Source: Paraoerskovia sediminicola (lineage in GTDB: Bacteria > Actinomycetota > Actinomycetes > Actinomycetales > Cellulomonadaceae). Taken from it: 64,000 nt of DNA. Where the stretch lies: contig NZ_AP027729.1 in NCBI RefSeq assembly GCF_030296575.1, forward strand, positions 372,001-436,000. The letters run 5' to 3'. Below, in pieces: positions 6,943 through 13,490 of the stretch (positions within the stretch are counted from its first letter, which is position 1; the number at the start of each line of letters is the position of its first letter). The notes under the pieces were generated by a model that worked only from the letters and a program-made list of their open reading frames with translations, ran no database searches and was not told where the DNA came from. A program made the translations under genes and the position numbers.

Positions 6943-6948
6943 TACGGT
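6943..6948 (+). promoter_or_regulatory. -10 hexamer TACGGT of the cysteine-biosynthesis operon
   Basis: TACGGT ends 7 nt before the ATG of the Cys-rich leader ORF, placing transcription start at or next to the A of the ATG. A weak TTCCGG sits at the -35 distance (6920-6925). Confidence 0.6.
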
Positions 6949-6955
6949 GTCGCCC

Positions 6956-7048
6956 ATGCACACGGCCCGGACCACCATCGCCCCGCAGCGCACCCTCGCG
7001 CCCCGCGGCATGTCGATGTGTCCGGACAGCAGCTGTCGCTGTTGTTGA
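6956..7048 (+). CDS. Cys-rich leader peptide of the sulfate-assimilation operon (probable cysteine attenuator)
   Basis: 30-codon ORF ending CPDSSCRCC: four Cys in the last nine residues, all encoded by TGT although TGC dominates in the neighbouring genes. ATG 6956 lies 7 nt after TACGGT, so the transcript is probably leaderless. The stop is 132 nt before the sulfite reductase gene. Leaderless poly-Cys short ORFs that tune cysteine operons by ribosome stalling have been described in mycobacteria; transfer of that role here is inference. Slow decoding of the scarce TGT codons at low Cys-tRNA would let the downstream genes be expressed. Confidence 0.75.
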   Translation: MHTARTTIAPQRTLAPRGMSMCPDSSCRCC

Positions 7049-7080
7049 CTCGCGCCTGACTCCGGCGGAACCCTGACGGG

Positions 7081-7120
7081 CCCGCACCGACGAGCGGGCG
7101 CGCGACGCCGGCCGCTCGTC
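7081..7120 (+). promoter_or_regulatory. Possible alternative hairpins between leader ORF and sir
   Basis: A 9-bp inverted repeat (7089-7097 with 7112-7120) and a 5-bp stem (7081-7085 with 7094-7098) share bases and cannot form together. Lying between the leader ORF and the sir ribosome binding site, they could carry a stalling-dependent switch. Pairing was judged by eye only. Confidence 0.35.
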
Positions 7121-7180
7121 CCCTCTGGATCGAGCCTTCCGCCCTGCCTCGCGCGCCCTTGAACCACATCAAGGAGCACG

Positions 7181-8935
7181 ATGACGCCGCACCCTGCCGC
7201 CGGGACACCGGCCACCGACACGCGCACGGCCGCGGCCCCGGCCGCCCGTCCAGCCCGGGCTGCCCGCCCGGCCCGCCCAGCGCGCCCCAACGGGCAGTGG
7301 AAGATCGACGGCACCGAGCCGCTGAACCACAACGAGGCCTTCAAGCAGGAGGACGGCGGCCTCAGCGTCCGCCAGCGGATCATCGACGTCTACTCCAAGC
7401 AGGGATTCGACTCGATCCCGGGCGACGACCTGCACGGCCGCATGCGCTGGTGGGGCCTGTACACGCAGCGCAAGCCGGGCATCGACGGCGGCAAGACCGC
7501 CACACTCGAGCCGCACGAGCTCGAGGACGAGTACTTCATGCTCCGCGTGCGCATCGACGGCGGCGCCCTGACCACCGAGCAGCTGCGCGTGATCGCCGGG
7601 ATCTCCGAGGACTTCGGCCGGGACAGCGCCGACATCACCGACCGCCAGAACATCCAGCTCCACTGGATCGAGATCGAGTCGGTCCCGGAGATCTGGGAGC
7701 GGCTCGAGGCGGTCGGCCTCGGCACCACGGAGGCCTGCGGGGACGTGCCGCGCGTCGTGCTCGGCAGCCCCGTCGCAGGTATCGCCGCCGACGAGCTCAT
7801 CGACCCGGCGCCGTCGATCGCCGCGATCACCGAGAAGTACATCGGCATCCCCGAGCTCGCGAACCTCCCGCGCAAGTTCAAGACCGCGATCACGGGGCAC
7901 CCGAGCCAGGACGTCGTGCACGAGATCAACGACGTCGCCTTCGTGGCCCTCGAGCACCCCGAGCTGGGTGTCGGCTACGACGTCTGGGCCGCCGGCGGAC
8001 TCTCCGCCAACCCGCGCCTCGGCGAGCGCCTCGGCGTCTTCGCGACCGAGGAGCAGGTGCCGGACGTCTGGCACGGCGTCGCGCAGATCTTCCGCGACTA
8101 CGGGTTCCGCCGGCTGCGCAACAAGGCGCGGCTCAAGTTCCTCATGGCCGACTGGGGGCCCGAGAAGTTCCGTCGGGTCCTCGAGGAGGAGTACCTGGGG
8201 TACGCGCTCCCCGACGGCCCGCCGGCCCCGCAGCCGACGACGCCCGGCGACCACGTGGGCGTCCACAAGCAGAAGGACGGGCTCAACTACATCGGCGCGG
8301 CGCCGTACGTCGGGCGGGTGTCGGGGCCCACGCTGCGGGCCGTCGCCGACCTCGCCGAGTCCGCCGGGTCGCACCGGGTCCGGCTGACGCCGCACCAGAA
8401 GCTCCTCGTCCTCGACGTCCCGGACGCAGAGCTCGAGCGCGTCGTCGGCGACCTCAAGGCGCTGGGCCTCGACGCGAACCCGAGCCCGTTCCGCCGCTCG
8501 ACGATCGCGTGCACCGGCATCGAGTACTGCAAGCTGGCGATCGTCGAGACCAAGGCGACCGCGTCGTCCGCCATCGACGAGCTGGAGAAGCGCCTCGGCG
8601 ACCTGTCCCACATGAAGCCGCTGTCGCTGAACATCAACGGCTGCCCGAACTCGTGCGCCCGCATCCAGACCGCGGACATCGGGCTCAAGGGCCAGCTCAT
8701 CACCGACGACGCCGGGCAGCAGGTCCCCGGCTTCCAGGTGCACCTCGGCGGCGGGCTGGCCTCCGACGACCGGGAGGCGGCAGGACTCGGTCGTACGGTG
8801 CGCGGGCTCAAGGTCACGGCCGAGCAGCTGCCGGACTACGTCGAGCGCGTCGTGCGCTCCTACGAGGCCGAGCACGAGGGCGACGAGTCGTTCGCCCAGT
8901 GGGCGCACCGCGTGGACGAGGAGCTGCTGACATGA
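7181..8935 (+). CDS. sir: Ferredoxin-dependent assimilatory sulfite reductase (siroheme, 4Fe-4S)
   Basis: Reduces sulfite to sulfide in the cytoplasm with six electrons from ferredoxin. 584 aa with two ferredoxin-like/siroheme half-domains. The cluster and siroheme cysteines are seen as Cys444-X5-Cys450 (TACTGIEYC) and Cys488-X3-Cys492 (NGCPNSC). Tyr94 and Cys186 (TEACGDVPR) are 92 residues apart, the separation of the Tyr-Cys crosslinked pair in the M. tuberculosis enzyme (often named NirA), favouring sulfite over nitrite as substrate. The first 35 residues are an Ala/Pro/Arg-rich extension. AAGGAG precedes the ATG. The stop overlaps the cysH start (ATGA). First large gene of the cys operon, behind the Cys leader. 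Confidence 0.92.
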   Translation: MTPHPAAGTPATDTRTAAAPAARPARAARPARPARPNGQWKIDGTEPLNHNEAFKQEDGGLSVRQRIIDVYSKQGFDSIPGDDLHGRMRWWGLYTQRKPGIDGGKTATLEPHELEDEYFMLRVRIDGGALTTEQLRVIAGISEDFGRDSADITDRQNIQLHWIEIESVPEIWERLEAVGLGTTEACGDVPRVVLGSPVAGIAADELIDPAPSIAAITEKYIGIPELANLPRKFKTAITGHPSQDVVHEINDVAFVALEHPELGVGYDVWAAGGLSANPRLGERLGVFATEEQVPDVWHGVAQIFRDYGFRRLRNKARLKFLMADWGPEKFRRVLEEEYLGYALPDGPPAPQPTTPGDHVGVHKQKDGLNYIGAAPYVGRVSGPTLRAVADLAESAGSHRVRLTPHQKLLVLDVPDAELERVVGDLKALGLDANPSPFRRSTIACTGIEYCKLAIVETKATASSAIDELEKRLGDLSHMKPLSLNINGCPNSCARIQTADIGLKGQLITDDAGQQVPGFQVHLGGGLASDDREAAGLGRTVRGLKVTAEQLPDYVERVVRSYEAEHEGDESFAQWAHRVDEELLT

Positions 8936-9763
8936 CCGCCGGGACGAGCAACCCGCTCGCCGCCCTCCGCGCGGCCGCGCAGGCCCGCAGCGCCGAGCGC
9001 GACGAGTCCCGCGCCCGAGCGCAGGCCGCACGGGCGTCCGCACCGCCGAAGCGCTCCGACGAGGAGCTCAAGGAGGTGGTCGCCCGCGGCGTCGCCGAGC
9101 TCTCCGGCTCCGGCGTGGGGTCGGACGACGAGGCGTCCGCGGCGGAGGTCGTCGCCTGGGCGGAGCGTGAGTTCGGGACGAGCATCGCGGTCGCCTGCTC
9201 GATGGCCGACGCCGTGCTGCCCCACGTGGTGGCGCAGGCCGCGCCGTGGGTCGACGTGCTGTTCCTCGACACGGGATACCACTTCGCCGAGACCTACGGC
9301 ACCCGGGACGCCGTCGCGCAGTCGATGGACGTCACGATCGTCGACGTCCTCCCGGAGCTCACCGTGGCGGAGCAGGACGAGAAGCACGGCAAGGACCTGT
9401 TCGGCCGCGACCCCGGGCTCTGCTGCCAGATGCGCAAGGTCGAGCCCCTGCAGCGCACCCTCGCCGGGTACGAGGTGTGGGTGACCGGCGTCCGCCGCGA
9501 CGAGGCCCCGACCCGCGCCAAGACCCCCTCGTGACGTGGGACCACAAGAACGGCCTGGTGAAGATCAACCCCTGGCCGCGTGGACCTTCGACGACCTGCT
9601 CGCCTACGCCACGAAGCACCAGGTCACGCTCAACCCGCTGCTGAACGACGGGTACCCGTCGATCGGCTGCGCCCCGTGCACCCGACGCGTCGCCCCCGGC
9701 GACGACCCACGCTCCGGCCGCTGGGCCGGCCTCGACAAGACGGAATGCGGGCTCCACGTATGA
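8932..9763 (+). CDS. cysH: Adenylylsulfate (APS) reductase; frameshifts near 9526 and 9570
   Basis: Reduces APS to sulfite with thioredoxin; about 277 aa once repaired. Seen: PAPS-reductase core with [12 protein letters not shown], the paired cysteines LCCQMRK and CAPC near the C-terminus, and a terminal ECGLHV. The CC...CXXC set binds a 4Fe-4S cluster and marks APS rather than PAPS specificity. One C is missing at 9524-9528 (restores [12 protein letters not shown]) and one at 9569-9572 (restores [11 protein letters not shown]). The N-terminal 40 residues are a low-complexity Ala/Arg extension. Start and stop overlap sir and cysD by ATGA, so translation is probably coupled. Confidence 0.88.
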
Positions 9764-10752
9764 CGACCGAACTGATCGACACCACGCCCCCCGGGGCCGG
9801 AGGGACCGACGTGACGACCACCGCGCAGGACGGGGCCGCGGCCCCGCTCTCGACGAGCCGCAGGCTCTCGCAGCTCGACGCGCTCGAGAGCGAGGCGATC
9901 CACATCTTCCGCGAGGTCGCGGCCGAGTTCGAACGGCCCGTCCTGATGTTCAGCGGCGGCAAGGACTCCGTCGTGATGCTGCACCTCGCGACCAAGGCGT
10001 TCTGGCCGGCGCCCGTGCCGTTCCCGGTGCTGCACGTCGACACGGGGCACAACTTCCCCGAGGTCCTCGCGTACCGGGACGCCACAGCCGACCGTCTGCG
10101 CCTGCGCCTCGAGGTCGCGTCCGTGCAGTCGTACATCGACGACGGCCGGCTCCGGGAGCGCTCGGACGGCACCCGCAACCCGCTGCAGACCCAGCCGCTG
10201 CTCGACGCGATCGCCGAGCACCGCTTCGACGCAGTGTTCGGCGGTGGTCGCCGCGACGAGGAGAAGGCGCGCGCCAAGGAGCGCATCTTCTCGCTGCGCG
10301 ACGAGTTCGGGCAGTGGGACCCGCGCAACCAGCGCCCGGAGCTGTGGAACCTGTACAACGGCCGCCACCGTCCGGGCGAGCACGTGCGCGTGTTCCCGCT
10401 GAGCAACTGGACCGAGCTCGACGTGTGGCAGTACATCGCCCGCGAGGACATCCAGCTCCCGGGCCTCTACTACGCGAGCGAGCGCGAGGTGTTCGAGCGC
10501 GACGGCATGCTCCTCGCCGTCGGGCCCCACTCCCGGCCGCGCGACGGGGAGACGGTGCAGACCCGCCTCGTGCGCTACCGCACGGTGGGCGACATGTCGT
10601 GCACGGGCGCGGTCGAGTCGGACGCCCGCGACGTCGAGGCGGTCATCGCCGAGGTCGCCGCGACACGCATCACCGAGCGGGGCGCGACCCGCGCCGACGA
10701 CCGCATCTCCGAGGCCGCCATGGAAGACCGCAAGAAGGAGGGGTACTTCTAA
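9760..10752 (+). CDS. cysD: Sulfate adenylyltransferase subunit 2
   Basis: Catalytic subunit that makes APS from sulfate and ATP, working with the CysN GTPase. 330 aa. The ATP-pyrophosphatase loop is seen as [11 protein letters not shown] near residues 65-75, with [16 protein letters not shown] and the conserved C-terminal [11 protein letters not shown] poorly conserved N-terminal extension of about 35 residues precedes the family start. The ATG overlaps the cysH stop; CysN starts one base after the stop. Confidence 0.95.
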
Positions 10753-10753
10753 G

Positions 10754-12110
10754 ATGAGCGCCCAGACCACCGTGCCGAGCACGCCCGCAGTGCTCCCCCG
10801 CACCACCACCACGATGCTGCGCCTCGCGACCGCCGGGTCCGTCGACGACGGCAAGTCCACGCTCGTGGGCCGGCTGCTCTTCGACTCGAAGTCGGTGCTC
10901 GCCGACCAGATCGAGGCCGTCGAGCGTGTCTCGCGCGACCGCGGCCTCGAGGGCGCCGACCTCGCGCTGCTCACCGACGGCCTGCGCTCCGAGCGCGAGC
11001 AGGGCATCACGATCGACGTGGCCTACCGGTACTTCGCGACCGCGAACCGCTCGTTCGTGCTCGCCGACTGCCCCGGTCACGTCCAGTACACGCGCAACAC
11101 GGTGACCGGTGCGTCCACCGCCGACGCCCTGGTCCTCCTCATCGACGCCCGCAAGGGTCTGCTCGAGCAGACCCGGCGGCACCTCGCGGTCGCGAGCCTG
11201 CTGCGCGTGCCGCACATCGTCGTCGCCGTGAACAAGATCGACCTGGTCGACTACTCGCAGGCCCGCTACGACGAGCTGGCGGCCGACATCCGTCGCACCG
11301 CGGCGTCGCTCGGCGTGGCCGACGTGCACCCGCTGCCTGTCTCCGCGCTGGTCGGGGACAACGTCGTGGACCGCAGCGAGCGGACCCCCTGGTACTCCGG
11401 GCCCACGCTCCTGGAGCTCCTCGAGTCGCTGCCGACCGCCGACGAGCCCGACGTCGAGGCGTTCCGGTTCCCCGTCCAGCTCGCGATCCGCCCCCAGGGC
11501 GCCGCGATCTCCGAGGAGCACCGCGACTACCGGGGCTACGCCGGGCAGATCGCCTCGGGTGTCGTCCGCGTCGGCGACCCGGTCGTCGTCCTCCTCCGGG
11601 CGGACCACGACGGTCGCCGGCATCGACACCGCCGACGGCAGCCGGACCGAGGCGTTCGCGCCCCAGTCGGTGACGATCCGGCTCACCGACGAGGTCGACG
11701 TCTCGCGCGGCGACCTCATCGCGGCCGCGGACGACGCCCCACCGGTCACGCAGGACATCGAGGGCATGGTCGCGTGGCTGGGTGACTCACCGCTGCGCCC
11801 GGGCGCCCGGGTGCTGCTCAAGCACACCACCCGGACGGTCAAGGCCGTGGTGCGCGACGTCGTCGGGCGCCTCGACCTGGACGCCGCCGAGCTCGTCCCG
11901 GGCGAGGAGCTCGGGCTCAACGACATCGGTCGGGTCCGGCTGCGCCTCGCCTCGCCGGTCGCGGCCGAGGAGTACGTGATCGCGCGGCGCACCGGCGCGT
12001 TCCTGCTGATCGACGCGCAGGACGGGGGCACGCTCGCCGCCGGTATGGTCGGCGACGCGCTGGCCGCCGTCCGCCACCCCGACGAACGACCGGCGCAGTA
12101 CTCGATCTGA
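10754..12110 (+). CDS. cysN: Sulfate adenylyltransferase subunit 1 (GTPase); frame break near 11593
   Basis: GTPase subunit that couples GTP hydrolysis to APS synthesis. About 452 aa after repair. EF-Tu-like G motifs are GSVDDGKST (G1), DCPGHVQY (G3) and NKID (G4), followed by two beta-barrel domains. There is no APS-kinase (CysC) fusion, consistent with direct use of APS by the CysH here. The frame changes at CC 11593-11594 by two missing bases (or one extra). This is the only break in the window that is not a net loss of one base; CTC-CCN-TCC-GGG would restore VVVLPSGRTT. Confidence 0.9.
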
Positions 12111-12162
12111 GCCGACGGCGAGGACGAGCAACGCGCACGACGTGACCACCGGGAGAGCAGGC

Positions 12163-13490
12163 ATGCACGACACGACAGGGTCCGGGGGCGCGGAGGACGT
12201 CACCGCGGTCGCCGACACGCCGCCCCAGGACCGGCTCTACCCGCTCGGCCTGGTGGTCCGGGACCGGCGGGTCGTCGTCGTGGGCGGGGGCCCCGTCGCC
12301 GAGCGGCGCACCCTCGGGCTCGTCGGTGCGGGCGCGCGCGTCACGCTCGTGGCACCCACGGTGACCACGTCGCTGCGCGCCCACGCCGAGGCCGGCACCA
12401 TCGACTGGCGGGCCCGCGACTACTCGGCGGGCGACGTCGACGGCGCGTGGCTCGTCCACACGGCGACCGGTGTCCCCGAGGTGGACTCGCGGGTGGCCGC
12501 CGATGCGGAGGCGCAGCGCACCTTCTGCGTCCAGGCCGGCGACGCCGGCCAGGGCAGCGCCTGGGTCCCCGCGGTGGCGCGGGTGACGGTGTCCGGCGGC
12601 GCCGAGGTCGGCATCGCCGTCCACGGCGGGCGCGACCCGCGCCGCGCACGCCGCGTCCGGGACGCCGTCGCGGCCGGCCTCGAGTCCGGCGCGCTCCCCT
12701 TGCGCCGGGTCCGGACGCGCTCCGGGACCGCAGCGGGGGCGGCCACCGCACCGACGGCACCGACGGCGCCGTCGGTCACGTCGCGCTCGTGGGCGGCGGT
12801 CCCGGCGCCGACGGTCTGGTGACCGCCCGCGGCAGGTTCCTCCTCGCCCAGGCGGACGTCGTGGTCGTCGACCGCCTCGCGCCGCGGGGTCTGCTCGACG
12901 ACCTGGCCGACGACGTCGAGATCGTCGACGTCGGCAAGCTGCCCGGGCACCACCCCGTGCCCCAGGACGAGATCAACGCGACCCTCGTGCGCCACGCCCT
13001 CGCGGGGCGGGACGTCGTCCGGCTCAAGGGCGGCGACCCGTACGTGTTCGGCCGGGGCGGTGAGGAGCTCGCCACCTGCCGCGAGCACGACATCGAGGTG
13101 GAGGTCGTGCCCGGCGTGACGAGCGCGATCTCCGTGCCGGCCGCCGTGGGGATCCCGATCACGCACCGCGGCCTGTCCCGGGGGTTCACGGTCGTCACCG
13201 GCCACGAGGACATCGGGAGCGTCCCTGCCGCGAGCGACCACACCGTCGTGCTGCTCATGGGGGTCTCGCGGCTGCGGGCGTCGGCCGAGGCGCTCGTCGC
13301 GTCGGGGCGGGACCCCGGGACGCCGGTCGCGGTCGTCGAGGACGGGTACGGCCCCCGGCAGCGCGCGACCGTCGGCACGCTCGCCACGATCGCGGACGTC
13401 GCGGCCGCGGCCGAGGTCCGCGCTCCGGCGATCACGGTGGTGGGGGACGTCGTCCGGCTCTCGCCCGCGTGGGTGGCCGAACAGAACTGA
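12163..13490 (+). CDS. cysG: Siroheme synthase: precorrin-2 dehydrogenase/ferrochelatase plus uroporphyrinogen-III C-methyltransferase; frameshift near 12735
   Basis: Supplies siroheme for the sulfite reductase encoded upstream. About 442 aa. The N-terminal half has a Rossmann NAD-binding site (VVVVGGGPVAERR) and CysG-N features; the C-terminal half is an SUMT methylase with VALVGGGPGADGL, VRLKGGDPYVFGRGGEE and VPGVTSAISVPA. The two halves lie in different frames, joined by a missing base in the G/C-rich linker (about 12720-12740). ATG 12163 has GGGAGAG at 12151-12157. It sits 52 nt after cysN and is followed by a strong terminator. Confidence 0.9.

Follow-up and report, generated by a model that had tools for sequence, protein, structure and literature searches.

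What is the function of a 30-codon open reading frame that ends in a cluster of cysteine codons in front of a sulfate-assimilation operon? An earlier note on a 64-kb stretch of the Paraoerskovia sediminicola genome (the window, in its whole length) had read this ORF as a lineage variant of the leaderless cysteine attenuators of mycobacteria, and every element that it described is present in the sequence. First, a −10-like TANNNT hexamer (TACGGT, 6943–6948, forward strand), the putative promoter of a leaderless mRNA, lies 7 nt 5′ of an ATG. Second, this ATG (6956) opens a 30-codon ORF on the same strand (6956–7048; MHTARTTIAPQRTLAPRGMSMCPDSSCRCC, followed by a TGA at 7046–7048), the peptide of which ends in MCPDSSCRCC and thus includes the reported CPDSSCRCC; all four of its Cys codons are TGT, as the note had observed, and the five Cys codons of the downstream sir gene are all TGC. 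Third, the next gene is a sulfite reductase gene, sir, which starts 132 nt behind the leader stop (ATG at 7181) and carries the NIR_SIR Pfam domains. The Cys codons are clustered at the end of a short ORF upstream of a cysteine-metabolism gene. The 30-residue peptide had no match in Pfam or NCBIfam. A TANNNT hexamer at matching spacing also precedes the leaders of relatives, and this spacing suggests that the leader ORF may be transcribed without a 5′ untranslated region.

The genes behind the leader all lie on the forward strand. The sir gene (7181–8935; PF01077 and PF03460), with the Shine-Dalgarno (SD) sequence AAGGAG at 7171–7176, encodes a sulfite/nitrite reductase family hemoprotein. It is followed by cysH (8932–9763; phosphoadenylyl-sulfate reductase family), cysD (9760–10752; sulfate adenylyltransferase small subunit, TIGR02039 above cut-off), cysN (10754–12110; sulfate adenylyltransferase large subunit) and a cysG-type gene (cysG/cobA, 12142–13490) with a uroporphyrinogen-III C-methyltransferase domain. 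The cysH frame is broken near 9519–9572, where the cysH of a relative aligned to the window in three frames by tblastn, and the gene was assigned from its N-terminal part and from tblastn pieces; the frames of cysN (about 11560–11790) and of the cysG-type gene (12447–12822) also appear broken. Because the source assembly (a 3.52-Mb genome) consists of two contigs with a completeness of 87.6%, these splits are likely insertion or deletion errors.

Has the leader been preserved among relatives? We defined a strict pattern consisting of TANNNT, a spacing of 5–9 nt, and an ATG or GTG opening an ORF of at most 55 codons with at least three Cys in the last 13 codons and Cys at two of the last three. 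The leader itself is the only match in the window, and 40 dinucleotide-preserving shuffles gave none. Upstream of sir orthologs in the same GTDB family, 71 of 141 loci (some of which are one genome fetched twice) match the pattern, with 0 matches on the reverse strand and an expectation of 0.00 from shuffles; a strict match is absent from about half of the loci. Within the genus, all four species keep the leader, with the ends MCPDSSCRCC, TCPDNSCRCC, ACPDNSCRCC and TCPDNSCRCC, so that CPD(N/S)SCRCC is constant and the N-terminal two thirds drift, the very pattern that the note had predicted for a sensor whose Cys run is kept while the rest varies. Rather than being lost from close relatives, an outcome that would have spoken against the note's reading, the ORF persists in these four species and in roughly half of the family loci. 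The number and spacing of the cysteines differ among genera (CCCC, SCCR, CRSCQP): the Cellulosimicrobium leader is MTTAARTLLVTSRHGMPACAHTCLSCCR, that of Oerskovia is MTTAAHLLLVTARHESTACARNSFCCCC, and that of Sanguibacter ends in TCAPSSTCCCCC; Antribacter has no strict match, yet it carries a variant that begins MTGLLMCSARCCL. In another large genus of the family (g21, loci L190–L213), a different Cys-rich ORF lies upstream of sir (e.g., CRCCRAAAVPCACCPRNR), for which a TANNNT hexamer is unclear. At the Arthrobacter and Microbacteriaceae sir loci examined, no comparable leaderless ORF was seen. The leader ORF is thus real and its Cys codons are preserved in relatives, and with the ORF conserved and the Cys run kept, the reading of the earlier note is supported.

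The preference for TGT generalises to the leaders of the family. Among 70 distinct family leaders, the ratio of TGT to TGC is 201:134, against 0:109 in the sir genes of the same group. The preference is positional and not uniform: the last two Cys codons give 121:19, the remaining leader Cys codons 80:115 (Fisher p 1e-17, which is only indicative because the leader sequences are related). It does not reflect general AT-richness, since, of the NNY codons for other residues within the last 12 positions of these leaders, 327 end in C and 34 in T. Nor is it special to this locus, because it is also strong in the RRHVD-bearing leaders found across the class, at 88:29 versus 6:112 in sir genes, the latter count covering only the class loci whose sir gene was read. 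The bias may reflect a slower, wobble-based decoding of UGU by tRNA-Cys(GCA); alternatively, it may keep GC pairs from forming in the RNA.

How might such a leader act on sir? We think it probable that the leader is a tRNA-Cys-sensing leader-peptide gene that controls the translation of sir-cysH-cysD-cysN-cysG through a switch among three RNA segments. Transcription would begin at the leader ATG, and 70S ribosomes would initiate on the leaderless end. When cysteine is sufficient, the ribosome would finish the leader and leave, segment 1 would pair with segment 2, and segment 3, then free, would pair with the sir SD and hide it. When Cys-tRNA is short, the ribosome would pause at the terminal UGU codons with its leading edge covering segment 1, segment 2 would pair with segment 3, and the SD would be more exposed. 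We infer three parts of this scheme, namely that the signal is cysteine, that the transcript is leaderless and which way the switch turns; such a sensor would most likely raise sulfur assimilation in cysteine shortage. In favour of the mechanism, 71 family loci keep the leader in its place before sir, together with the leaderless spacing and an end rich in Cys. The positional TGT bias, the co-varying helix described below and the lack of an intrinsic terminator before sir also count for it.

The RNA between leader and sir contains candidates for all three segments, on the forward strand: segment 1 (CGCGCCTGACTC, 7051–7062) right behind the leader stop, segment 2 (GACGAGCGGGCGCGCG, 7089–7104), and segment 3 (CGCGCGCCCTTGA, 7150–7162), which is complementary over 9 bp to segment 2 and, as CCTTGA/TCAAGG, to the SD of sir. 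In relatives, the distance from the leader stop to sir is mostly 130–160 nt, and an alignment of 28 dereplicated sequences places CGCGCC right behind the leader stop, GGCGCGCG some 45 nt further on and CGCGCG just ahead of the SD. We compared the pairing of each arm with the arm of its own species and with those of other species. In this swap test, which together with the alignment defines the first two segments, the helix between segments 1 and 2 co-varies (z −4.7 for 28 sequences; p 0.004–0.005 for 8 dereplicated sequences), the signal coming mainly from CTCAG/CTGAG, CTCGG/CCGAG, ACTC/GAGT and CTG/CAG variants. The pairing of segment 3 with the SD gave z −2.6 and p 0.005 for 28 sequences, and lost significance with 8 (p about 0.1). 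For segments 2 and 3, which are complementary and nearly invariant, the swap test detected no co-variation; a hairpin that minimum-energy folds predict in the stretch separating them (approximately 7110–7136) likewise has no co-variation signal. The pairings of segment 2 with segment 1 and with segment 3 are mutually exclusive, and the 9-bp helix of segments 2 and 3 uses two bases of the 6-bp stem that hides the SD. The elements of the switch are thus supported, and the switching itself is a predicted step. Under equilibrium ensemble folding the SD of the window stayed paired with or without masking of segment 1, and over 73 sequences the masking changed SD exposure little on average (15 up, 6 down). 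This folding result, the lack of co-variation between segments 2 and 3, the significance that segment 3 and the SD lose on dereplication, and the roughly half of loci without a strict match count against the mechanism. So does the reach of the ribosome: given the size of its footprint, only stalls at the last two Cys codons cover segment 1, and a stall at the first Cys would not. Searches with a model of the RNA gave no further copies above background in the genome, and only weak matches near background when applied to sir loci outside the family but within the class. The only Rfam match in the region lies on the opposite strand, far below the gathering score, and was rejected.

A second candidate of the leaderless kind was found elsewhere in the same genome. 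Outside the window, on the reverse strand at C1:1978065, TACCGT is followed after 7 nt by MTCRMCCC and a stop, upstream of a metY-like gene, the product of which we take to be O-acetylhomoserine sulfhydrylase-like from its sequence features. Several relatives keep MTxRMCC(C) before metY. A genome-wide pattern search for CC-ending leaderless ORFs returned only this site, with zero control matches; such patterns miss longer leaders, the sir leader included. Unlike those of the sir leader, its Cys codons are all TGC. From its sequence, the metY leader would be a second member of the kind and would count for the cysteine-sensing mechanism.

The same Cys leader could instead act on transcription, with the stalled ribosome preventing Rho from acting on naked RNA or preventing a pause structure from forming. 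The absence of co-variation between segments 2 and 3 and of any computed opening of the SD would fit this explanation, as would the long and strongly structured intergenic RNA, and Rho has been suggested for mycobacterial cys leaders (PMC1262725). However, no intrinsic terminator (a GC-rich hairpin with a U run) was found between leader and sir, segment 3 adjoins the SD and is complementary to it with some co-variation, and PMC13236596 and PMC9031893 describe the mycobacterial case as one of translation. We therefore regard an action on transcription as rather unlikely. A classical transcription attenuator was rejected, the sole terminator-like match of the region (GACAG-CAG-CTGTC, then GCTGTTGTTG, at 7025–7045) falling inside the leader ORF, where it probably arises as a side effect of the TGT codons.

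Does the peptide, and not the codons, carry the signal? In our class sample of 148 genomes, a peptide of the form R(R/L)H(V/I)D..RV.S..C is encoded upstream of most of the sir genes fetched (73 motif matches), in many cases with a single TGT-coded Cys. NCBIfam models such peptides as NF042936 (leader_Ms4527A, Cys-rich leader peptide) and NF042934 (cis_reg_atten, putative leader peptide), the cut-offs of which are passed by class loci L289 (NF042936, 49.7 bits) and L273 (NF042934, 36.4 bits). An arrest by the nascent peptide, perhaps sensing a signal other than tRNA-Cys and with the class-wide RRHVDLxRVxSAxC peptide as its original form, would explain why this motif is so strongly conserved with often a single Cys, and why LVxxRH is kept in many family leaders. 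Nevertheless, the window leader is without the motif, neither model matched any of five leaders of its family, its own included, and the genus conserves nothing of the peptide but its Cys-rich end, so that we consider nascent-peptide arrest improbable at this locus. One family locus (L205) still carries the RRHVDL motif, and in the simplest history the family leader would descend from the class-wide one, having given up the motif and gained additional Cys codons. Because most of the sampled class sir loci carry an RRHVDL-type Cys leader, it is the loss of the motif and the gain of Cys codons that appear distinctive here. It is also conceivable, although we hold it to be doubtful, that UGU has been selected at the last Cys codons in order to place the stall where the ribosome covers the switch's first arm, that this is a class-wide actinobacterial rule, and that this family swapped a conserved arrest-like motif for several Cys codons.

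Could the ORF encode a small Cys-rich protein, metal- or redox-binding, that acts in trans? The CxCC-type ending conserved in the genus would suit such a protein, but the cysteines vary in number and spacing between genera, the N-terminus drifts, neither Pfam nor NCBIfam holds a match, and conserved RNA follows the ORF at a constant distance, all of which makes this explanation very improbable. The ORF is short, and the GC-rich DNA around it holds many mechanical ORFs; a chance origin is nevertheless ruled out by its conservation in the family and by the shuffle and reverse-strand controls.

If the tRNA-Cys-sensing reading is true, ribosome-based cysteine sensing, for which the experimental evidence considered here is mycobacterial, extends to a large group of Micrococcales, where it can be tested directly through the conserved RNA and the position-dependent codon bias. 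The coexistence of RRHVDL-bearing and motif-free Cys-rich leaders at one gene would then be a natural experiment on codon sensing versus nascent-peptide sensing.

How does this locus compare with the systems already known? In mycobacteria, a leaderless Cys-rich sORF lies upstream of nirA/Msmeg_4527 (Shell 2015, PMC4633059). Like the window leader, it is short and directly precedes a sulfite/nitrite reductase gene; the peptide of the mycobacterial type, however, has RRHVDxKRVCSxCC, and that of the window is without the motif. Similarly, NF042934 describes a short leader peptide, but its profile misses that of the window. Candidate Cys leader peptides have also been predicted in Mycobacterium and P. 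acnes (cys operons) and at B. longum cbs (Seliverstov 2005, PMC1262725), which share with ours the Cys codons near the stop, the position upstream of cys genes and the lack of an obvious terminator; conserved hairpins were not found there, whereas the RNA between leader and sir contains a co-varying helix here. Cysteine-responsive translation attenuation is credited to Canestrari 2020 (doi 10.1111/mmi.14498) in PMC13236596 and PMC9031893. As portrayed there, the polycysteine attenuators of M. smegmatis are leaderless ORFs with clustered terminal Cys codons at cysteine-metabolism genes, and ribosome pausing with translation attenuation was proposed for them, as we propose here. The M. smegmatis cysteines are contiguous and the response to cysteine was reportedly shown, whereas those of the window leader are spread over nine residues, its response is a prediction, and a different RNA follows it, with a helix that co-varies within the family. 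The window leader probably works like these attenuators. Because cysteine-responsive attenuation by leaderless Cys ORFs has been published for mycobacteria, we place the system described here within a known kind, of which it is a variant, most likely a divergent version of the mycobacterial switch.
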